Shown here piece by piece: positions 5,801 through 34,939 of a DNA stretch of 64,000 nucleotides (positions are counted from its first letter, which is position 1; each line of letters begins with the position of its first letter). A program made the translations under genes and the position numbers. The notes beneath the pieces were generated by a model that saw only the letters and a list, made by a program, of their open reading frames with translations, was not told the origin of the DNA and ran no database searches. The DNA comes from Bugulina stolonifera (lineage: Eukaryota; Bryozoa; Gymnolaemata; Cheilostomatida; Bugulidae), in the NCBI GenBank assembly GCA_935421135.1, contig OW285189.1, positions 7,585,072-7,649,071 of the forward strand. Direction: 5' to 3'.

Positions 5801-7396
5801 CTTCAGAGAGTCAGATTTAAAAATTTTCCGCTGCGCGTGCATTTGCGGGGGGTGCCCGCACCCCCTCCCACCCAACTTTCTGCCTCCCCACTCAATTTTT
5901 CTAACCTACGCCTCTGACATCTCATCACTTATTTAAAATAATTACTGAAATATTATAACACTATGTCTATGTACTAGTTGTGAGCTCCTATCACATATTT
6001 TATTTCAATTTTTTGTTATTATTTAATTAATTCCATCGAAGTTGAATAAATGGTGCGTCACAACTGGTCAGCCACCCTCAGTGAATAAAATGTGCAATCA
6101 AGAAATTCTGTTCAACTCACCTATATTAACCAGAGCTTCTGCCCATCCTTCCAATACGTATATGGCGAAGAGACCCTCTATGTATGGACAGTAGGGTACG
6201 GCTGTATTGAGAGCAGCACACGCTACTAGTGACAGAGCAACAATGAGCTCTACTTTGGTGTGAAACCTGTCCACTATATATCCCCCTCCTAACAAAATAG
6301 CAAGTATTTTCATACACATTATGTCTATTCAAATAAACATGCATGCTAGAAATGTTAAACATATCAAAAAACAATAGGGGGACAACTCTCAAAATTTTTC
6401 ACACATGAACTTTTGTACCCTCTATGTTTATAAACCTGCAAACCTAACCAGGGATAACCTGATAACACTAAATTATTATTAGGAATGGTAATAAATTGAA
6501 TTGGGTGTTAATCTAGTAGATACGATGCATTAATCTACATATTTATATAGTCTTTACATGTATGATCTAGTTGCAAAGAAGTGGAATTTTTATTGCAAAA
6601 CCATAGATCAGTATTCATTTATAGTTAATAGATTCCACAATTGTTTATCTTCCCATTAGGCTGCCATATCAAATAGCCTTGTAAAATAAAAAGATGTTGC
6701 TCGGTGTCTCAAATGGCACTCTAAAGGTCATACAAATTATTTACTAACAGCAACCATATACACTATATGCCATTGACTTGGAGATAGTATTGCAAGGTTA
6801 CATAACAGCTTACCGAGTAGACATCCACACAGACCGCCGGCGCCTCTCATGGATATGGCGCGGGATATGACTTCATAGTTTGAGCTGGTTAAATGCATCA
6901 AGTCTTGGAGAGTAGCCCCATTGACCTCTGCCCATAAACCCTGCAAGTACCTCAAGCATCACAAACAACTCTACACGATTGATTGTGCATACACTTAGAA
7001 GTCAAACTATGAGGTACACTGCTGAGGGTACAGAGATGAAATAGCAAGCTGATTACTGACCAAATGTCTAGCAGTTATATATATTGGCATACTTGATAAC
7101 ATGTGTGCATATACTACAGGGTTGATAGCATTGACAGCAGCATCACAATATTTTGTGGAATCCCAAATATTTTAAAGGAATAGCTATAGTGAAACAAGGG
7201 TATCGATCTTCTATACAGTGATTCTGCTATGCAGAGACACTAGTATATAGTAATGGTTATGTTCACTTACAATGCAAATCCATATTAGAATTATGGCAAA
7301 CGTCTTCAGTATCTTGTAAAAGAGGGAATGTTGTTTGGAGTTATCTCCTCCAATTGCTCCCATGTCCATATCAAATTTCTCCCTTGAGATCGACAT
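2856..7396 (-). CDS. Major facilitator superfamily transporter, MFSD4/NaGLT1-like, four exons, complete
   Basis: Exons on the minus strand are 7396-7271, 6940-6814, 6288-6121 and 3961-2856, 508 codons plus stop. All junctions are GT-AG and the phases agree (0, 1, 1). The start is the first ATG of the open frame, after a short cytosolic N-terminus. Many hydrophobic helices are visible. Residues about 85-140 contain the loop GGYIVDRFHTKVEL, typical of the MFS helix 2-3 loop. At about 150-170, WKEKASGPLHVIHLGYGAGS matches the MFSD4 signature around helix 5. A Thr/Asn-rich extracellular loop (about 190-240) has four N-glycosylation sequons. The tail is charged (ERE-REKEQPQ). Rat NaGLT1, of the MFSD4 family, is a sodium-dependent glucose transporter of about 480 aa, so the length fits. 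The role as a sugar carrier in the plasma membrane is inferred from family only; the substrate is not shown by the sequence. Confidence 0.85.
4707..5916. mobile_element. Candidate non-autonomous hAT-like element inside the transporter's last intron
   Basis: The left end CAGGGGCGTA (4707-4716) and the right end TACGCCTCTG (5907-5916) are inverted with one mismatch. The pentamer ACATC sits immediately outside both ends (4702-4706 and 5917-5921). CAGGGGCGTA-type ends are common in animal hAT-derived repeats, although hAT elements normally make 8-bp duplications. The interior is AT-rich and non-coding. A diverged relative of the left part is seen at about 60630-60790. The family assignment is tentative. 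Confidence 0.4.
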
Positions 7397-19948: not shown

Positions 19949-19954
19949 ACAGGC
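19949..19954. repeat. Target site duplication, left copy (ACAGGC)
   Basis: The hexamer ACAGGC directly precedes the element's first base. The same hexamer directly follows its last base at 28203-28208. Outside the hexamers the flanks are unrelated. Six-bp duplications are characteristic of Polinton/Maverick integration. Confidence 0.8.
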
Positions 19955-20211
19955 AGTAGTATAGTCAGTGCAGATCTACACAGACACCCGGCCCTTTCCG
20001 CGTCGTATTAGCCCTAGATCCAAAAACTCCCCGGGCGGACGACCACCCCACCCGTCCTCTCGCCCCTCCTCTCCCCTAAACCTCACTCTATGTGCAAAGC
20101 CCTAGAACCTACTCCCCCCCATCGCGGGTGGGGTTTCAAAAACCTCATCGGCTGTTCCGTAGAACCCAGTCTAAAGAGCAAACCCCTCGCCCGGTCCCAC
20201 GGCTCGGGCGA

Positions 20212-20239
20212 GGGGGCGCGCGCGTACGCGCGCGCCCCC
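20212..20239. repeat. 28-bp perfect palindrome of alternating CG (left arm)
   Basis: The centre CGCGCGCGTACGCGCGCG flanked by G5 and C5 is self-complementary and alternates purine and pyrimidine, so Z-DNA or a cruciform could form. The mirror copy is at 27918-27945. Confidence 0.7.
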
Positions 20240-20465
20240 CCGCCCCGCGAACCCCACCCGTCCTCCCTCCACCCGTCCCCGCCCCTCCCCACCCCTCCCC
20301 ACCCCAAACCCCTCCGCCTCGCCCTCCGCCTCGCGGCGGTTCTCGTTCGCGAGTCCAGCCGTGGCCCCACGCCGCCCTCCCCCCCGCCCATCCCCCGCCC
20401 CTCCCCCGCTCTCCCGCCCCAACGACCCGTCGCGGCCCTCGCGGGCGGACCGTCGGCTGGAGTAG

Positions 20466-20620
20466 GGTGAAGCGAAGGAAAATACGGGTTAGAGTAATGA
20501 TATCCGGCTATGAAAAACGTGAGCGAGGGTAATGGTACACGAATTTGTTTTAAATTTCAATACGTTTGAGAGTAATAGTACGGTGAAGCGAAGAAAAATA
20601 CGGGTTGGAGTAATGATAGG
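20466..20620. repeat. Subterminal duplicated motif, left arm
   Basis: GGTGAAGCGAAG followed by AAAATACGGGTT and GAGTAATGATA occurs at about 20466 and again at about 20582, 116 bp apart. A weaker relative lies near 21379. Such subterminal repeats are often transposase or replication-protein binding sites; that role is inferred. The mirror copies lie at about 27535-27690. Confidence 0.55.
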
Positions 20621-20685
20621 GTACGCCCGTGCGGAGTGCCCGTGCAGAGTTTACGACGCTGACTATACTACTATAAGAAACTTAC

Positions 20686-21044
20686 CGAGTGGTGGTGGTG
20701 GTGCTTCCGGATGATTTCTTCGCCGGGGACTGTTGAGACTGAACTGGTCGGGGTGACACCGCACTCGCGCGCTCCTCCGTTCGAGCGCCCCCGGACCTCC
20801 GATGAAAGACTCGCGCCTTAACCCTCGTTTCCCCCGGACCCTCCCCTAGGGAAATCGCCCGTCCCCGTGACGAGCGGCGAGGGAAAGTGAAGGCGGTGGC
20901 TCTTTCGCGCTTCAAACCGTAGACCTCGCGAGGTGGTTCGCCGGCGACATCCTCGCTCGGAGGGGTAGAAATAGATAAATGGAATAAATGGATGGCTGTC
21001 TTCTCATCATCATCATCATCATCATCATCAACATCATCATCATC
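20686..21044 (-). pseudogene. Mirror copy (left arm) of the Asp-run/basic candidate exon
   Basis: This is the reverse-complement counterpart of the open segment at 27112-27470, with the same acceptor and donor. One residue differs (Ala here, Thr in the right arm). See that entry. Confidence 0.35.
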
Positions 21045-21559
21045 CTACAAATAGACCCGCCTCCACGATGATGTCGTTGACTCCCCACCAATTTCTTCGA
21101 CCACCGCGTCCACTTTCCCCCGGGTAGCAAACTCCGATAGGGAGAGAGCGCATCGTGCGCGTGCGATGTCACCCCCCACCTACGAATGAAGACGATAGAA
21201 GAAATGTGAACTGATAAGGGGTGAGTATGAGTGGAAGTTGCACTAGTACCGTCTACCCCTTTGGTTTGGCGAGGTAAATGGTTTTTAATGTATTAGCTAG
21301 TGTTTTATTGCTCGGTTTTAAGGTTACAACCGGTAAACCCTCCGTTTTGAGGACGGAGACCCCTTACAATAGAGAGTGAATGTGAAGAAAAATATACGGG
21401 TATATGTACAAGGGTTATGTTGCACTGTTCGTTTACTCTCCAATTTATCGAATGAAGTAGTCTCATCTCCGAGAAATCAGTACTAGCATTCTATAGGACT
21501 CGTACTCACCCCGTCTTCTGCAACCTTCCGCTTACCATAGAGGTAGGTGAGTCCGGTCT

Positions 21560-21707
21560 TTAGCTGGGTGTAGCTATACGTTTGGTTTCCTCTTCTGATA
21601 AATTTTTATCTTTTCGGATGAGCGCATCTATACTACGAGCACTCAGGGCCATGTAAGCGCTATCCGTGTCCATTTCTACGTACTCAAACTCCTCTCTGCT
21701 GACGAAT
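21560..21707 (-). pseudogene. Family-B DNA polymerase fragment, left-arm copy
   Basis: This is the mirror of 26449-26596 with the same acceptor-like junction and the same motif-C core EMDTDSAYMAL. Only about 48 codons of the polymerase remain, ending in a stop. Confidence 0.65.
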
Positions 21708-21812
21708 CTGTGAAAATAAAATGGACGGGTTGGAGGGTGCTGACACCGAAGAATAAATAGAGAAGGATTTGATAAAATCTTTGTGTAGTCTAGTTCTACT
21801 CATCTATCCATA

Positions 21813-23516
21813 TGTGTACACATGTTAAAATACCTTTATATAATAGTTCAAACACAATTGAATGAATAAAAGACACATATCTAAAGGAGTATGTCATAGC
21901 TATTATTAGCAAGAAAAGACTGTGTGCATGTGTTAAGTCAGCATACATAATACATTAAATAAGCTTTTCACAATAGTAGCGATAGAATAAATAAAAGGTT
22001 GTATGCATGTGTTAAGTCAGCATTATGTAATTCATTAAATAAACTTTTCACAATAGTAGCAATAGAATATATAAAAGGTTGTATGCATGTGTTAAGTCAG
22101 CATTATGTAATACATTAAATAAACTTTTTACAATACTAGCAATAGAATGAATAAATGTGTACACATGGTAAAATACCATTATATAATAATTTAAACACAA
22201 TTGAATGAATAAAACGCACATATATGTAAAGGAGTATGGCATACCTATTATTAGCAAGAAAAGGCTGTGTGCATGTGTTAAGTCAGCATATATAATACAT
22301 TAAATAAACTTTTCACAAAGTCAGCATAATATATAATACATTAAATAAACTTTTCACAATAGTAGCAATAGAATAAATAAAAGGTTGTGTGCATGTGTTA
22401 AGTCAGCATTATGTAATTCATTAAATAAACTTTTCACAATAGTAGCAATAGAATAAATAAAAGATTGTGTACACATGTTAAAATACCATTATATAATAAT
22501 TTAAACACAATTGAATGAATAAAAGGCACATATGTAAAGGAGTATGACATACCTATTATTAGCAAGAAAAGGCTGTGTGCATGTGTTAAGTCAGCATATA
22601 TAATACATTAAATAAACTTTTCACAAAGTCAGCATAAGATATAATACATTAAATAAACTTTTCACAATAGTAGCAATAGAATAAATAAAGGGTTGTGTGC
22701 ATGTGTTAAGTCAGCATTATGTAATTCATTAAATAAACTTTTCACAATAGTAGCTATAGAATAAATAAAAGAGTGTGTACACATGTTAAAATACCTTTAT
22801 ATAATAATTTAAACACAATTGAAAGAATAGGCTGTGTGCATGTGTTAAGTCAGCATATATAATGGATTAAATAAGCTTTTCACATAAAATACCTTTATAT
22901 AATAATTTAAACACAGTTGAAAGAATAGGCTGTGTGCATGTGTTAAGTCAGCATATATAATAGATTAAATAAGCTTTTCACATACCTATTATTAGCAAGA
23001 AAAGGCAGTGTGCATGTGTTAAGTCAGCATATATAATAGATTAAATAAGCTTTTCACAATAGTAGCAATAGAATAAATAAAAGGTTGTGTGCATGTGTTA
23101 AGTCAGCATTATGTAATTCATTAAATAAACTTTTCACAATAGTAGCAATAGAATAAATAAAAGATTGTGTACACATGTTGAAATACCTTTATATAATAGA
23201 TTAAATAAGCTTTTCACATACCTATTATTAGCAAGAAAAGGCTGTGTGCATGTGTTAAGTCAGCATATATAATAGATTAAATAAGCTTTTCACAATAGTA
23301 GCAATAGAATAAATAAAAGGTTGTGTGCATGTGTTAAGTCAGCATTATGTAATTCATTAAATAAACTTTTCACAATAGTAGCAATAGAATAAATAAAAGA
23401 TTGTGTACACATGTTAAAATACCTTTATATAATAATTTAAACACAATTGAAAGAATAGGCTGTGTGCATGTGTTAAGTCAGCATATATAATAGATTAAAT
23501 AAGCTTTTCAATAGTA
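21813..23516. repeat. AT-rich minisatellite array, left arm
   Basis: Units of roughly 60-80 bp containing GTGTGCATGTGTTAAGTCAGC, ATTAAATAAACTTTTCAC and AATAGTAGCAATAGAATAAA are repeated about twenty times in mixed order, with higher-order repeats of about 190 bp. The right-arm counterpart (24800-26345) is about 156 bp shorter overall, so the arms have diverged here in copy number. Confidence 0.75.
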
Positions 23517-23829
23517 GGTAGGTGTCACTGTTTTAGTCTCCCTATAATAAATATAAAGTAGCAGGGTGTAAGTAATTTTTTAGCTTGATAGCATTATATA
23601 CAATAAACACTTCACAATTGCTGCCAATTACCCTATTTAGCACTAACCTTATGTTCTACTTGTTGAAATCTCTGATCAGGTGCTGACTAGTAGGTAGCTG
23701 TCTCTGTTTTAGTCTCACTCTGTTGACTAGAGGCTGATTGTACATACTGCTAGAGTGAGAAACTCATACCTTAAATAGTAGTATTCAGTAGGCGGAGTCT
23801 AACCATTTCCCCACCCTTTGCAATACCAC

Positions 23830-24168
23830 CCCGATGCGTCCCGATGTGAATCCGAAGCCTCCCGATGCACCCCGATGCGAATCCGAAGCCTCCCGATGCA
23901 CCCCGATGCGAATCCGAAGCCTCCCGATGCACCCCGATGTGAATCCGAAGCATCCCGATGCACCCCGATGCGAATCCGAAGCCTCCCGATGCACCCCGAT
24001 GTGAATCCGAAGCCTCCCGATGCACCCCGATGTGAATCCGAAGCCTCCCGATGCGAATCCGAAGCCTCCCGATGCACCCCGATGTGAATCCGAAGCTTCC
24101 CGATGCACCCCGATGCGAATCCGAAGCCTCCCGATGCATCCCGATGCACCCCGATGTGCCCCGATGTG
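23830..24168. repeat. 31-bp satellite array, left half of palindrome centre
   Basis: About ten units of 31 bp built on CCCGATGCACCCCGATG and AATCCGAAGCCT. Units differ at two places (GCG or GTG before AATCC; CCT, CAT or CTT after GAAG). The pattern is all-frame open, which explains the long overlapping reading frames seen here; none is a gene. Confidence 0.85.
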
Positions 24169-24174
24169 TCAAAT
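24169..24174. other. Palindrome spacer TCAAAT
   Basis: GATGTG (24163-24168) and CACATC (24175-24180) are complementary across these six bases. A transcript or single strand could therefore fold with a minimal loop. Confidence 0.7.
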
Positions 24175-24485
24175 CACATCGGGGTGCATCGGGTTACATC
24201 GGGATGCATCGGGAAGCTTCGGATTCACATCGGGAGGCTTCGGATTCGCATCGGGGTGCATCGGGAGGCTTCGGATTCACATCGGGGTGCATCGGGATGC
24301 TTCGGATTCACATCGGGGTGCATCGGGAGGCTTCGGATTCGCATCGGGGTGCATCGGGAGGCTTCGGATTCACATCGGGGTGCATCGGGAGGCTTCGGAT
24401 TCGCATCGGGGTGCATCGGGAGGCTTCGGATTCGCATCGGGGTGCATCGGGAGGCTTCGGATTCACATCGGGACGCATCGGGGTG
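24175..24485. repeat. 31-bp satellite array, right half of palindrome centre
   Basis: This is the reverse-complement counterpart of the left array. The order of variant units is similar but not identical: the CAT variant is fourth from the outer side on the left and sixth on the right. This suggests unit gain, loss or exchange since the arms formed. Confidence 0.85.
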
Positions 24486-24799
24486 GTATTGCAAAGGGTG
24501 GGGAAATGGTTAGACTCCGCCTACTGAATACTACTATTTAAGGTATGAGTTTCTCACTCTAGCAGTATGTACAATCAGCCTCTAGTCAACAGAGTGAGAC
24601 TAAAACAGAGACAGCTACCTACTAGTCAGCACCTGATCAGAGATTTCAACAAGTAGAACATAAGGTTAGTGCTAAATAGGGTAATTGGCAGCAATTGTGA
24701 AGTGTTTATTGTATATAATGCTATCAAGCTAAAAAATTACTTACACCCTGCTACTTTATATTTATTATAGGGAGACTAAAACAGTGACACCTACCTACT

Positions 24800-26345
24800 A
24801 TTGAAAAGCTTATTTAATCTATTATATATGCTGACTTAACACATGCACACAGCCTATTCTTTCAATTGTGTTTAAATTATTATATAAAGGTATTTTAACA
24901 TGTGTACACAATCTTTTATTTATTCTATTGCTACTATTGTGAAAAGTTTATTTAATCTATTATATATGCTGACTTAACACATGCACACAGCCTTTTCTTG
25001 CTAATAATAGGTATGTGAAAAGCTTATTTAATCTATTATATAAAGGTATTTCAACATGTGTACACAATCTTTTATTTATTCTATTGCTACTATTGTGAAA
25101 AGTTTATTTAATGAATTACATAATGCTGACTTAACACATGCACACAACCTTTTATTTATTCAATTGCTACTATTGTGAAAAGCTTATTTAATCTATTATA
25201 TATGCTGACTTAACACATGCACACAGCCTATTCTTTCAACTGTGTTTAAATTATTATATAAAGGTATTTTATGTGAAAAGCTTATTTAATCTATTATATA
25301 TGCTGACTTAACACATGCACACAGCCTATTCTTTCAATTGTGTTTAAATTATTATATAAAGGTATTTTAACATGTGTACACACTCTTTTATTTATTCTAT
25401 AGCTACTATTGTGAAAAGTTTATTTAATGAATTACATAATGCTGACTTAACACATGCACACAACCCTTTATTTATTCTATTGCTACTATTGTGAAAAGTT
25501 TATTTAATGTATTATATCTTATGCTGACTTTGTGAAAAGTTTATTTAATGTATTATATATGCTGACTTAACACATGCACACAGCCTTTTCTTGCTAATAA
25601 TAGGTATGTCATACTCCTTTACATATGTGCCTTTTATTCATTCAATTGTGTTTAAATTATTATATAATGGTATTTTAACATGTGTACACAATCTTTTATT
25701 TATTCTATTGCTACTATTGTGAAAAGTTTATTTAATGAATTACATAATGCTGACTTAACACATGCACACAACCTTTTATTTATTCTATTGCTACTATTGT
25801 GAAAAGTTTATTTAATGTATTATATATTATGCTGACTTTGTGAAAAGTTTATTTAATGTATTATATATGCTGACTTAACACATGCACACAGCCTTTTCTT
25901 GCTAATAATAGGTATGCCATACTCCTTTACATATATGTGCGTTTTATTCATTCAATTGTGTTTAAATTATTATATAATGGTATTTTACCATGTGTACACA
26001 TTTATTCATTCTATTGCTAGTATTGTAAAAAGTTTATTTAATGTATTACATAATGCTGACTTAACACATGCATACAACCTTTTATATATTCTATTGCTAC
26101 TATTGTGAAAAGTTTATTTAATGAATTACATAATGCTGACTTAACACATGCATACAACCTTTTATTTATTCTATCGCTACTATTGTGAAAAGCTTATTTA
26201 ATGTATTATGTATGCTGACTTAACACATGCACACAGTCTTTTCTTGCTAATAATAGCTATGACATACTCCTTTAGATATGTGTCTTTTATTCATTCAATT
26301 GTGTTTGAACTATTATATAAAGGTATTTTAACATGTGTACACATA
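24800..26345. repeat. AT-rich minisatellite array, right arm
   Basis: Mirror of the array at 21813-23516, with the same unit motifs on the opposite strand and fewer units. Confidence 0.75.
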
Positions 26346-26448
26346 TGGATAGATGAGTAGAACTAGACTACACAAAGATTTTATCAAATCCTTCTCTATT
26401 TATTCTTCGGTGTCAGCACCCTCCAACCCGTCCATTTTATTTTCACAG

Positions 26449-26596
26449 ATTCGTCAGCAGAGAGGAGTTTGAGTACGTAGAAATGGACACGGATAGCGCT
26501 TACATGGCCCTGAGTGCTCGTAGTATAGATGCGCTCATCCGAAAAGATAAAAATTTATCAGAAGAGGAAACCAAACGTATAGCTACACCCAGCTAA
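26449..26596 (+). pseudogene. Family-B (protein-primed type) DNA polymerase fragment, right-arm copy
   Basis: A good acceptor (TTTTATTTTCACAG, ending 26448) precedes an open segment of about 49 codons containing EYVEMDTDSAYMAL, then a charged stretch and a TAA stop. YxDTDS/MDTDS is motif C of family-B polymerases, where the two aspartates bind catalytic metal. The Ala-Tyr-Met-Ala context is like the polymerases of Polintons and related elements. The exonuclease domain, the TPR regions, and motifs A and B are absent, so it cannot be an active polymerase. Further open codons in another frame (TGLTYLYGKRKVAEDG) follow up to a GTGAGT at about 26648. The identical mirrored copy at 21560-21707 shows that the fragment was present before or when the palindrome formed. 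Confidence 0.7.
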
Positions 26597-27111
26597 AGAC
26601 CGGACTCACCTACCTCTATGGTAAGCGGAAGGTTGCAGAAGACGGGGTGAGTACGAGTCCTATAGAATGCTAGTACTGATTTCTCGGAGATGAGACTACT
26701 TCATTCGATAAATTGGAGAGTAAACGAACAGTGCAACATAACCCTTGTACATATACCCGTATATTTTTCTTCACATTCACTCTCTATTGTAAGGGGTCTC
26801 CGTCCTCAAAACGGAGGGTTTACCGGTTGTAACCTTAAAACCGAGCAATAAAACACTAGCTAATACATTAAAAACCATTTACCTCGCCAAACCAAAGGGG
26901 TAGACGGTACTAGTGCAACTTCCACTCATACTCACCCCTTATCAGTTCACATTTCTTCTATCGTCTTCATTCGTAGGTGGGGGGTGACATCGCACGCGCA
27001 CGATGCGCTCTCTCCCTATCGGAGTTTGCTACCCGGGGGAAAGTGGACGCGGTGGTCGAAGAAATTGGTGGGGAGTCAACGGCATCATCGTGGAGGCGGG
27101 TCTATTTGTAG

Positions 27112-27470
27112 GATGATGATGATGTTGATGATGATGATGATGATGATGATGAGAAGACAGCCATCCATTTATTCCATTTATCTATTTCTACCCCTCCGAG
27201 CGAGGATGTCGCCGGCGAACCACCTCGCGAGGTCTACGGTTTGAAGCGCGAAAGAGCCACCGCCTTCACTTTCCCTCGCCGCTCGTCACGGGGACGGGCG
27301 ATTTCCCTAGGGGAGGGTCCGGGGGAAACGAGGGTTAAGGCGCGAGTCTTTCATCGGAGGTCCGGGGGCGCTCGAACGGAGGAGCGCACGAGTGCGGTGT
27401 CACCCCGACCAGTTCAGTCTCAACAGTCCCCGGCGAAGAAATCATCCGGAAGCACCACCACCACCACTCG
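27112..27470 (+). pseudogene. Candidate exon: Asp-run plus basic Ser/Pro-rich segment (right arm)
   Basis: An acceptor TTTGTAG (ending 27111) opens a frame that starts with an Asp run encoded by a GAT microsatellite, continues STPPSEDVAGEPPREVYGL, and then becomes Arg/Ser/Lys-rich (FPRRSSRGRA, KKSSGSTTTTT) up to a GTAAGT donor at 27471. About 119 codons are open. The family is not recognised. Basic tails of this sort occur in nucleic-acid-binding or packaging proteins, but nothing specific can be claimed. It could equally be a chance frame in GC-rich DNA. Confidence 0.35.
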
Positions 27471-27483
27471 GTAAGTTTCTTAT

Positions 27484-28202
27484 AGTAGTATAGTCAGCGT
27501 CGTAAACTCTGCACGGGCACTCCGCACGGGCGTACCCTATCATTACTCCAACCCGTATTTTTCTTCGCTTCACCGTACTATTACTCTCAAACGTATTGAA
27601 ATTTAAAACAAATTCGTGTACCATTACCCTCGCTCACGTTTTTCATAGCCGGATATCATTACTCTAACCCGTATTTTCCTTCGCTTCACCCTACTCCAGC
27701 CGACGGTCCGCCCGCGAGGGCCGCGACGGGTCGTTGGGGCGGGAGAGCGGGGGAGGGGCGGGGGATGGGCGGGGGGGAGGGCGGCGTGGGGCCACGGCTG
27801 GACTCGCGAACGAGAACCGCCGCGAGGCGGAGGGCGAGGCGGAGGGGTTTGGGGTGGGGAGGGGTGGGGAGGGGCGGGGACGGGTGGAGGGAGGACGGGT
27901 GGGGTTCGCGGGGCGGGGGGGGCGCGCGCGTACGCGCGCGCCCCCTCGCCCGAGCCGTGGGACCGGGCGAGGGGTTTGCTCTTTAGACTGGGTTCTACGG
28001 AACAGCCGATGAGGTTTTTGAAACCCCACCCGCGATGGGGGGGAGTAGGTTCTAGGGCTTTGCACATAGAGTGAGGTTTAGGGGAGAGGAGGGGCGAGAG
28101 GACGGGTGGGGTGGTCGTCCACCCGGGGAGTTTTTGGATCTAGGGCTAATACGACGCGGAAAGGGCCGGGTGTCTGTGTAGATCTGCACTGACTATACTA
28201 CT
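27484..28202. repeat. Outer block of right arm bounded by inverted copies of the terminal motif
   Basis: Mirror of 19955-20672. AGTAGTATAGTCAG at 27484-27497 faces the terminal copy at 28189-28202. The block includes the GC-rich segment and the CG palindrome at 27918-27945. Confidence 0.7.
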
Positions 28203-28208
28203 ACAGGC
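28203..28208. repeat. Target site duplication, right copy (ACAGGC)
   Basis: Immediately follows the element's last base (…TACTACT) and matches 19949-19954 exactly. Confidence 0.8.
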
Positions 28209-28656: not shown

Positions 28657-28910
28657 TTGTAGGTACATCTACATGTACATATACCGTGTGCTATTCAACT
28701 AATAGACTGTATATCTACATGTACATATACTGTGTGCTATTCAACTAATAGACTGTATATCTACATGTACATATACCGTGTGCTATTCAACTAATAGACT
28801 GTATATCTACATGTACATATACCGTGTGCTATTCAACTAATAGACTGTATATCTACATGTACATGTACTATGTGCTATTCAACTAATAGACTGTATATGC
28901 ACCTATGCAC
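28657..28910. repeat. 46-bp minisatellite, about five copies
   Basis: Units start at 28686, 28732, 28778, 28824 and 28870 with GTGTGCTATTCAACTAATAG followed by ACTGTATATCTACATGTACA. The array is nearly homogeneous except for the last unit. Confidence 0.85.
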
Positions 28911-32926: not shown

Positions 32927-33535
32927 TTTTGTTCATGCAATCCATGTGCAGATAAAAATTCTATAGCATGATATCTTATATCGTATATGTAAGCTATCGA
33001 ATAGATTGGAACATGCATCTGACTGTATAATAACAAACGCTGGTAGCAATTAACACTGCACCATTCTCTAAACGGAACTATCTCTGATACACTATATATT
33101 ATGCATAGCCTCTAACTCAGACTATTCTTGGCAAGCAAATCTTTGTATTTCCATTCTAGGTTTATTAATAGTTGTAAATATGGTTTATGCTAATAGAACA
33201 ACTAACAAGGTGGACGTGGAATATCTAATTTACACAGTATGACACCTATGTTACAGGTAGAATATATGTGACACTGATATAATATTATTAATTGGTCATT
33301 ACCAGCTGGTAGAGTATAGAATAGGATGTACCAAACAGTAAGACTATGTGTATGCCAACAATTCTCTGGGCGGATACTGATTAATTTCAAAGCCACACAG
33401 AAATAGTATATTTATGTATGTTTGTTATATAATTGTGGTTATGAACAGTAAAAGCATATCAAATTCAGATTAGCATTGATTAACAATCTACCAAAATGTC
33501 ACATTGCAAGTAATTTGATTCCTTCTACATTACAG

Positions 33536-34939
33536 TCATTTTCTCTGAAGAAGCTGGATAATGTCTGCAAGCCCCCCTGTATTATCAAGCTAACTACTAA
33601 TAGCAGAACTCGTGACAATGGGCTTCCGTCCGAACTGACAGCAAGTGAAGGAATATTGATGCATTCAATTGTCAGTCACAAACGAATAATCTGCCAATGT
33701 GCAAAGTCAGCTGACTTAGAGAAGTGTCCTGACAACGAATCAAAAAAGTTCTCGATGCCCATTAATTATGACGGCTTAGTCGAGTTATTATCAGAAAATG
33801 GTGAAGCTTCGCGACCTTTAAACTTTATTTCTCAAGTAGCCGAGATAGCACCAGAAAAGGTTCTAATTAGATCTCGAATTGAAGCATTATTGGAAGTTAC
33901 AGACAAAGGTTCAGTAAGAACTTTAGAGCGAGGGACTGTTCTCACTGTAAAGGGGACGGCAAGAGTCACTTCTCGACAAAACTCACAAACTTACCTGCAC
34001 TGTATTGACAAAGATGGTTTCTATATTTACCTTAACTACAGCACCAAAGGTGTGTTTAGTCCCTTTGCCGGCCCAAAAAACATTTCTGGAGTTCACACTA
34101 TTGAATCGATTGTTAGGCGGTTCCGTCTTCCTTGTACAGTCAGAGTAGTATCTGGAAAGATTCCACGAGAGGCATGTGATGAAGAGCGACCTGGAGTGTT
34201 CAGATTGCTGCAGTTACGTAAAGAAAAGATGGTTATGCTGTCTCCTCTATCTGCAAAGCAGGTGCTAATCCCAGTTTCTCTAAAAGCCGACGTATCGTTC
34301 TATAAGCCCGCCAATATGCAGGAGCTGAGCACACATTTCATATTTCGACAAATCCTGGACTCCTGCACAAATAAAGTGAGAGAGTATCTTAGGACAATAC
34401 ATGTGATAGTGAGTAGAAGCTCGGCAAAGTGCCAACAAGTTGTCGAAGATGAGGAAGAGAATTTATTTAACGACGTTGACGAAATTTATCCGTATATCCG
34501 ACGAGGTGGAATACCACCGAGAATGATGAGGGCAAAATCCTTGGACAATGAGATCCTCACAGCAAATGGTATCAGTGGCATTGTATACAATCGAAGCAGT
34601 TCTCAACCAATAATAAGCACCCGAGAGCGATCAGGTTCGCTAGCCGTTTCGCAACTACTAAAGACACATACCGTGTCATCATCGAAAACTGAAACAACGT
34701 TTCAATTCAGGAGCACATTCGATAGCTTGACTCTTGGCAAAACTGATGTCCTACGTCAATTTATACAGAAGTATACCAGCAAGGAATCTCTGCAGACTCC
34801 CTCTAGTCAAGAGCAATCTGCAGCTGATTTCTCCGATGACGACATTTACTTCACACTTGACAAGAACAGCTCACACAACCCAAACAGCGTTAAGGACATA
34901 TTATCTATACAAAGTGACAGTATGACTAATAGAGGTTAA
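33536..34939 (+). CDS. Tandem CABIT-domain protein (THEMIS/GAREM-like), 3' terminal exon
   Basis: The open frame has no ATG near its 5' end. A strong acceptor (TTCCTTCTACATTACAG, ending 33535) suggests that this is the last exon and that upstream exons carry the start. The exon encodes 467 codons plus stop. Residues about 1-170 form one CABIT module (SLKKLDNVCKPPCIIKL at the start, a conserved Pro-Cys; later VLIRSRIEALLEV and GTVLTVKGTARV). A second begins VHTIESIVRRFRLPCTVRVV at about 180-280. The LPCxV/PPCII cysteines are the hallmark of CABIT. Then come an acidic stretch, DEIYPYIRRGGIPPR with possible phosphotyrosine and proline ligands, and a Ser/Thr-rich disordered tail. In vertebrates THEMIS and GAREM are cytosolic signalling adaptors that bind GRB2 and regulate receptor signalling through SHP phosphatases or ERK. 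A similar adaptor role here is inferred. Confidence 0.75.
   Translation, partial: SFSLKKLDNVCKPPCIIKLTTNSRTRDNGLPSELTASEGILMHSIVSHKRIICQCAKSADLEKCPDNESKKFSMPINYDGLVELLSENGEASRPLNFISQVAEIAPEKVLIRSRIEALLEVTDKGSVRTLERGTVLTVKGTARVTSRQNSQTYLHCIDKDGFYIYLNYSTKGVFSPFAGPKNISGVHTIESIVRRFRLPCTVRVVSGKIPREACDEERPGVFRLLQLRKEKMVMLSPLSAKQVLIPVSLKADVSFYKPANMQELSTHFIFRQILDSCTNKVREYLRTIHVIVSRSSAKCQQVVEDEEENLFNDVDEIYPYIRRGGIPPRMMRAKSLDNEILTANGISGIVYNRSSSQPIISTRERSGSLAVSQLLKTHTVSSSKTETTFQFRSTFDSLTLGKTDVLRQFIQKYTSKESLQTPSSQEQSAADFSDDDIYFTLDKNSSHNPNSVKDILSIQSDSMTNRG

Follow-up and report, generated by a model that had tools for sequence, protein, structure and literature searches.

The window analyzed here, a stretch of 64,000 nucleotides from the bryozoan Bugulina stolonifera (contig OW285189.1, positions 7,585,072 to 7,649,071), contains at 19955-28202 an element that is palindromic over its full length and carries no intact gene. 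With a probability of about 0.8 for the explanation as a whole, we assign it to a young lineage of fully palindromic, non-autonomous transposons that has some 36 copies in this genome. Comparison with a 9.6-kb element of the same genome, here called the parent, which encodes a family-B DNA polymerase (PolB), shows that an inverted copy of the left half, deleted in part and rearranged, took the place of the parent's right half, with the axis at a small inverted repeat already present in the parent's minisatellite. Comparison among copies shows that the two-armed product was then inserted many times as a unit, with 6-bp target duplications.

Structure of the palindrome and of its parent

The element is an inverted duplication of 8,248 bp with arms of about 4.1 kb each, and the inverted repeat is real, far above what chance would produce: the longest aligned piece of the arms covers 2,748 nt (20235-22982 against 25174-27921) at 100% after rounding, and two others, of 709 and 292 nt, are each 99% complementary. 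The nominal midpoints of the three pieces (24078, 24156, and 24078, respectively) differ because the arms are unequal in length. Split at the axis, the arms measure 4,214 and 4,028 bases and align with five gap events, the large gaps lying in tandem arrays, and with 16 mismatches in 4,027 aligned positions. A global alignment of halves split at 24080, which is off the axis and leaves 102 bases at the inner end unpaired, gives 7 mismatches (3,963 of 3,970 paired bases agree).

Apart from those mismatches and the length differences in the arrays, this is the near-perfect 8.2-kb palindrome described in an original prediction made from the sequence alone. The six bases across which the arms were said to meet are read in the axis motif GATGTG-TCAAAT-CACATC (24163-24180). 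The AG...CT termini and single target duplication described there are also present, AGTAGTATAG... on the left and ...CTATACTACT on the right, with the 6-bp duplication ACAGGC on both flanks, and so is the remnant of a family-B polymerase in both arms: an exon remnant with motif C (YVEMDTDSAYMALS) can be translated from the right arm, where the frame stops at a stop codon, and a mirror copy stands in the left.

The parent is represented here by a typical 9.6-kb copy, L021, whose 544-bp terminal repeat is 100% identical at the two ends. Three of its frames are gene-like (PolB, ORF191, and ORF256), none besides PolB being longer than 256 residues. The leftward gene has a frame of 1,237 residues with matches to DNA_pol_B_2 (PF03175, 2.4e-6, above the cut-off) and to C2H2 fingers, past which come motif B (KLVGNSAYG) and then a second exon with motif C; motifs A, B, and C are all readable. 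The segment between motifs A and B is Vsr-like, though weakly so (Pfam 0.0041, below the cut-off; PHROG endonuclease 1.2e-4); TIGR00632 matches the homologue P0002 at 3.8e-4, below the cut-off, and the parent's proteins gave weak matches only against PHROGs and NCBIfam. The model of the polymerase is closest to the phi29 polymerase, tied with that of African swine fever virus. The parent thus has a polymerase of the protein-primed type, group I, with the Vsr-like insertion by which, in an excerpt of PMC10328495, group I Polintons are defined. A Cys/His pair around DNLCFFRCLA would fit the vOTU domain that an excerpt of PMC11071308 describes.

The two other genes run rightward. ORF191 is lysine-rich, 191 residues long, and without matches. 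ORF256 (256 residues) is identical over 241 residues to the database protein P0121, one of only two found. The model of P0121 has two five-stranded units, and its best matches among solved structures are RPA and POT1; with middling confidence, then, ORF256 may be taken as a tandem OB-fold protein that putatively binds single-stranded DNA. Between the divergent genes lies a CCCGATG minisatellite, itself inverted about GATGTG-TCAATT-CACATC.

Against L021, each arm of the window element matches 1-547 (0.92% substitutions), 506-1549 (3.8%), 1893-2115 (6.2%), 5981-6145, and the central minisatellite. Gone from the arms are 1550-1892 and most of the polymerase, and of what lies to the right of the minisatellite, the arms keep only the terminal repeat and a short adjoining piece. 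None of the 11 palindromes compared has ORF191 or ORF256, and the body of PolB is lacking as well. With its ends and segments in common with the parent and no intact gene, the element has the features of a non-autonomous derivative, and the predicted fold-back descent from a Polinton-related element is upheld by the match of the arms to the PolB parent. The immediate relative, however, is not the classical 15-20 kb Polinton that had been supposed but a 9.6-kb element with PolB and an OB-fold protein.

Very long inverted repeats and internal tandem arrays also recall classical foldback DNA transposons such as FB and Galileo, which are mobilised by a DDE transposase and make duplications of other lengths. 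An element of that type that had captured a polymerase fragment would likewise be non-autonomous, with long inverted arms and tandem repeats. This origin is very unlikely: the termini, terminal repeats, subterminal segments, and center all match the 9.6-kb PolB element (hence the polymerase fragment is ancestral rather than captured), the duplications are of 6 bp, and only 6 bp separate arms of 4 kb.

Copies in the genome and a common founder

A 34-bp terminus pattern has 693 matches in the genome (346 forward and 347 reverse, with up to 3 mismatches) and none in the control. Totals such as this are complete, while place-by-place listings (of the terminus, ORF256, the PolB exon, and the parent axis) hold exact matches only, at least 100 of each. 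Among the exact termini listed, which lie on C1, C2, and part of C3, 96 of 100 form 48 pairs (the four unpaired were dropped): 35 pairs are of parent type, with polymerase exon and ORF256, 11 carry the deletion-junction marker of the palindromes, described below, and 2 have one end replaced. The parent-type pairs are 9.1-9.9 kb long, except for one of 11.1 kb and one of 6.5 kb, and the palindromes 7.3-8.4 kb. A 6-bp target duplication was found at 24 of 24 insertions examined, from all classes and including 13 palindromes, and all 24 duplications differ. These insertions comprise the window element, 20 fetched loci, and 3 more loci read at both ends; fully read copies were picked for having both termini exact, so broken copies are under-represented.

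The marker is the junction at which parent position 1549 is joined to 1893. It occurs 36 times in each orientation, as 35 inverted pairs and two lone matches, and the spacing within a pair is exactly 4,970 in five copies. That the junction is common to the palindromes points to a single founder. (One pair, C8:1702462-1714353, has a spacing of 11.9 kb and is perhaps split by another insertion.)

If the palindrome were remade at each transposition, a one-armed hairpin intermediate being copied so that the two arms are always fresh copies of each other, then the arms of one copy should be each other's nearest relatives. Partner arms can indeed be very alike (in L030, 1 substitution and 1 gap event in 1,857 outer bases). 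But in the whole-arm comparison the partner was nearest, in a tie, for only 1 of 22 arms. Among the window copy, L038, and L039, arms on the same side show 1-4 differences from copy to copy, as against 20-22 between the left and right arm of a single copy. Left and right arms have therefore descended separately, without one serving as template for the other with each move, and the palindrome formed once and moves two-armed. Remaking at each move is very unlikely and could apply at most to rare copies.

One insertion is nested: the palindrome at C11:14081045-14089290 sits within another palindrome, and when its flanks are joined, less one ATTACA, they give a gapless 594-bp match to other palindromes. 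This empty site, the duplications at every insertion examined, and arm-specific inheritance agree with the prediction of an element mobilised as a unit. The prediction did not foresee that the event would be represented by a multi-copy family, with one founder and not remade at each move. It did depend on the existence of relatives, and these, judging from the terminus matches, run to hundreds.

The same observations bear on the possibility of an assembly artefact, in which a repeat was collapsed or one arm was wrongly joined to its own reverse complement. Assemblers are known to fail on near-perfect inverted repeats. Against this stand the 35 marker pairs, the intact and differing 6-bp duplications of 11 out of 11 palindromes among the window element and the fetched loci, the clean empty site of the nested copy, and arm-specific differences common to several loci. 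The assembly itself, according to an excerpt of PMC10213821, rests on 52-fold HiFi reads and has 60 contigs with a contig N50 of 12.6 Mb. An artefact is thus highly improbable.

A pair of termini 39 kb apart on C11 was considered as a large autonomous element, but it proved to be a palindrome with 99.95% identity to the window element, split by a foreign insert of about 31 kb (L041 2423 to L044 3539, C11:3824022-3855138). The insert has a 3-base junction overlap, large internal tandem and inverted repeats, and few open frames; possibly it is another large mobile element.

Origin of the founding palindrome

The parent-type axis, TCAATT, occurs 386 times in the genome and the palindrome-type axis, TCAAAT, 42 times. 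Marker pairs account for 27 of the latter, and in the 25 uninterrupted pairs the axis is found at 0.42-0.64 of the interval. Among the 15 outside marker pairs, one is in a palindrome, L032, with the marker on one side only, and 9 (including L032) are in those genome regions to which the listing of exact ORF256 matches extends. Three of these 9 are 1.2-1.7 kb from a listed ORF256 match, and therefore some parents carry a TCAAAT axis; the founder of the palindromes probably derived from such a parent.

Two other copies show a like change on a smaller scale. L029 and L031 have lost the right end, at different points, and have in its place an inverted left end of 1,089 or 1,140 bp; each join occurs once in the genome and has no microhomology. 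A place with exact PolB-exon matches at both ends, at about C4:17194250-17204350, was taken up as a possible second palindrome, but its middle is ordinary PolB sequence; from the part read, it may at most be a third end-replaced case. At C6:4539642 (-) and C6:4543410 (+) two PolB-exon matches face each other head to head, with some 390 bp between their left ends as judged from the coordinates; they are either neighboring insertions or a head-to-head fusion.

The founding event most likely took place during replication of a parent in the form of linear DNA. Either a strand, displaced or broken, would have folded on the inverted minisatellite, or two copies would have recombined through it, and copying back to the same end would then have given a palindrome centered on the minisatellite axis. 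Because the 544-bp repeat is common to both parent termini, molecules with two left ends would keep the signals for the parent's machinery and could be viable parasites. Replication of the palindrome would be provided in trans, by the polymerase and OB-fold protein of intact relatives. Both the formation route and the integrating machinery we infer. A strand switch in protein-primed replication is plausible, and the observations agree just as well with recombination between inverted minisatellites of the parent.

Put in full, the proposal makes the palindrome a chromosomal equivalent of copy-back defective genomes: a strand switch at the inverted minisatellite of a linear, protein-primed PolB replicon without an integrase would have yielded a product that survives on its two identical ends as a self-sustaining parasite, while the parent would be a minimal replicon (polymerase and protein binding single-stranded DNA) that borrows a retroviral-type integrase or dispenses with one. 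We would put this specific account at slightly under even odds.

Perhaps, instead, the founding palindrome was made in a chromosome, when copies in opposite orientation recombined through the inverted minisatellite or the gap left by an excision was misrepaired, and was only then mobilised by the parent's machinery. The inverted-minisatellite axis, present in hundreds of chromosomal copies of the parent, would offer a ready site for recombination, and the joins in L029 and L031, lacking microhomology, are as in end joining. Nothing decisive speaks against a chromosomal origin, but the Polinton-type polymerase and the OB-fold protein make a linear replicative stage likely; a chromosomal origin is accordingly a serious possibility, though one we would hold well short of an even chance.

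Several observations weigh against descent by copy-back from the parent, or against parts of it. The prediction of an inverted duplication of an element holds insofar as the arms are mirrored, but they are not one continuous piece of the parent and so not its plain mirror: they have deletions relative to its left half, some 1.4-1.5 kb of AT-rich tandem repeats in each arm that are unmatched in the parent, and, directly after the terminal repeat, an 83-bp piece of the parent's right subterminal region. Eight of the 35 marker pairs have no exact match to the axis, and for 11 of the 42 axis matches there is no surrounding palindrome and no listed ORF256 match close by (C1:17539722, C1:17543818, and C10:741777 are examples). 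L033, L036, and L040 lack the link between arm length and axis orientation seen in the window lineage, and therefore some arm conversion or axis inversion has occurred since. The joins in L029 and L031 resemble end joining more than hairpin priming. The linear replicative stage is predicted from the polymerase type and the OB-fold protein, and the OB-fold model has a predicted local distance difference test score of 69.8 and whole-chain TM-scores of 0.15-0.2. Finally, no Pfam match to an rve integrase at E up to 1 was found in 14 frames of L021 (those of 110 or more residues outside the terminal repeats and minisatellite), and of the 986 rve candidates in the genome, the 150 best have no member as near as 100 kb to any of six full Polintons.

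These six, candidates for a source of integrase in trans, are places where a Polinton-like PolB (95-101 bits at five, two pieces at the sixth) and a packaging ATPase have matches 4.2-5.2 kb apart: C1:4280945, C1:12828897, C1:34622916, C2:16262050, C4:2373604, and C10:524940. The packaging-ATPase matches lie elsewhere in the genome than L021. Within 100 kb of the three full Polintons on C1 there is no 34-base terminus among those listed for it (the listing gives exact matches), and these three may have ends different from those of the 9.6-kb element. One marker pair, C1:34613369-34618197, absent among the listed exact termini, is about 5 kb from a full Polinton polymerase match.

The parent resembles Polintons (Mavericks) in its AG...CT ends, terminal inverted repeats, and 6-bp duplications (24 of 24 copies, of all classes) and, for group I, in the Vsr-like segment between motifs A and B of PolB. 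It differs in length, 9.6 kb rather than 15-20 kb, and in gene content: among the 14 frames of L021, there was no match to capsid, packaging ATPase, or protease families, nor to the integrase, and ten of these frames gave two weak Pfam matches only, both to uncharacterized families (E 0.017 and 0.016, each short of the cut-off). The window element differs further in being palindromic throughout and lacking an intact gene. An excerpt of PMC11071308 presents bidnaviruses and cytoplasmic linear plasmids as having a Polinton-related protein-primed PolB without the Polinton gene set, and in this the parent is like them; the top viral model matches bear densovirus and parvovirus names, which we take to be bidnavirus-like. 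Unlike them, the parent is chromosomal and multi-copy, with 6-bp duplications and no capsid gene found in the 14 frames. A scan of IMG/VR with the parent PolB gave one pattern match and no confirmed relative.

Symmetrical defective adenovirus genomes and vector minigenomes form through inverted repeats. They are like the palindrome in that a protein-primed linear genome has, in place of one end, an inverted copy of the other, centered on an internal inverted repeat; the difference is that the adenovirus forms are DNA of infected cells, whereas the bryozoan product has been inserted in chromosomes dozens of times and is inherited. Among the matches listed in open-licence literature concerning such adenovirus genomes and palindromic, non-autonomous, integrase-less, or foldback Polintons, there was no description of such a family, which is weak evidence of absence.

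To our knowledge, the case for protein-primed linear replication of Polinton-type elements rests mainly on gene content. A family with the anatomy expected of a defective genome of such a replicon makes linear replication testable in a living animal, and the known parent comes with graded relatives, whose inverted ends are 0.54 kb, 1.1 kb, or full length; a single genome displays the parent, its product, and the spread of that product. Long palindromes of this kind are usually considered unstable in chromosomes, and the family shows that, with 4-kb arms and a spacer of 6 bp, they can persist there at dozens of loci. The analysis also brings to light an abundant 9.6-kb PolB element with no integrase gene found in the 14 frames scanned.

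Coordinates and neighboring features

Table 1. Parts of the palindromic element and its flanks, in window coordinates.
Feature	Position	Strand	
Target site duplication ACAGGC, left copy	19949..19954	.	
Palindromic non-autonomous element, 8,248 bp	19955..28202	.	
Left terminal repeat; identity of 98.9% with that of parent L021 (9.6 kb, repeat of 544 bp)	19955..20499	+	
Left arm part equivalent to parent 506-1549	20577..21602	+	
Deletion-junction marker specific to the palindromes, left arm (junction of parent positions 1549 and 1893)	21579..21607	-	
PolB exon 2 remnant, motif C, DTDS, left arm	21603..21812	-	
AT-rich tandem array, left arm, 80-bp and 308-bp periods; no match to parent L021 with the blastn settings used	21914..23417	+	
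CCCGATG minisatellite, 31-bp period, left half of center; matches the parent's central minisatellite	23830..24168	+	
Palindrome axis TCAAAT	24169..24174	+	
Minisatellite, right half of center	24175..24482	-	
AT-rich tandem array, right arm (extent of repeat-finder rows)	24871..26242	-	
PolB exon 2 remnant, motif C, right arm	26344..26553	+	
Deletion-junction marker, right arm	26549..26577	+	
Right arm part equivalent to parent 506-1549	26554..27579	-	
Right terminal repeat	27657..28202	-	
Target site duplication ACAGGC, right copy	28203..28208	.	

Directly to the right of the element is a 46-bp minisatellite of 5.1 copies (28663-28898). Farther on, a long frame at 33452-34936 (+) has homologues with a CABIT domain (PF12736), the closest named relative being in the bryozoan Watersipora subatra.

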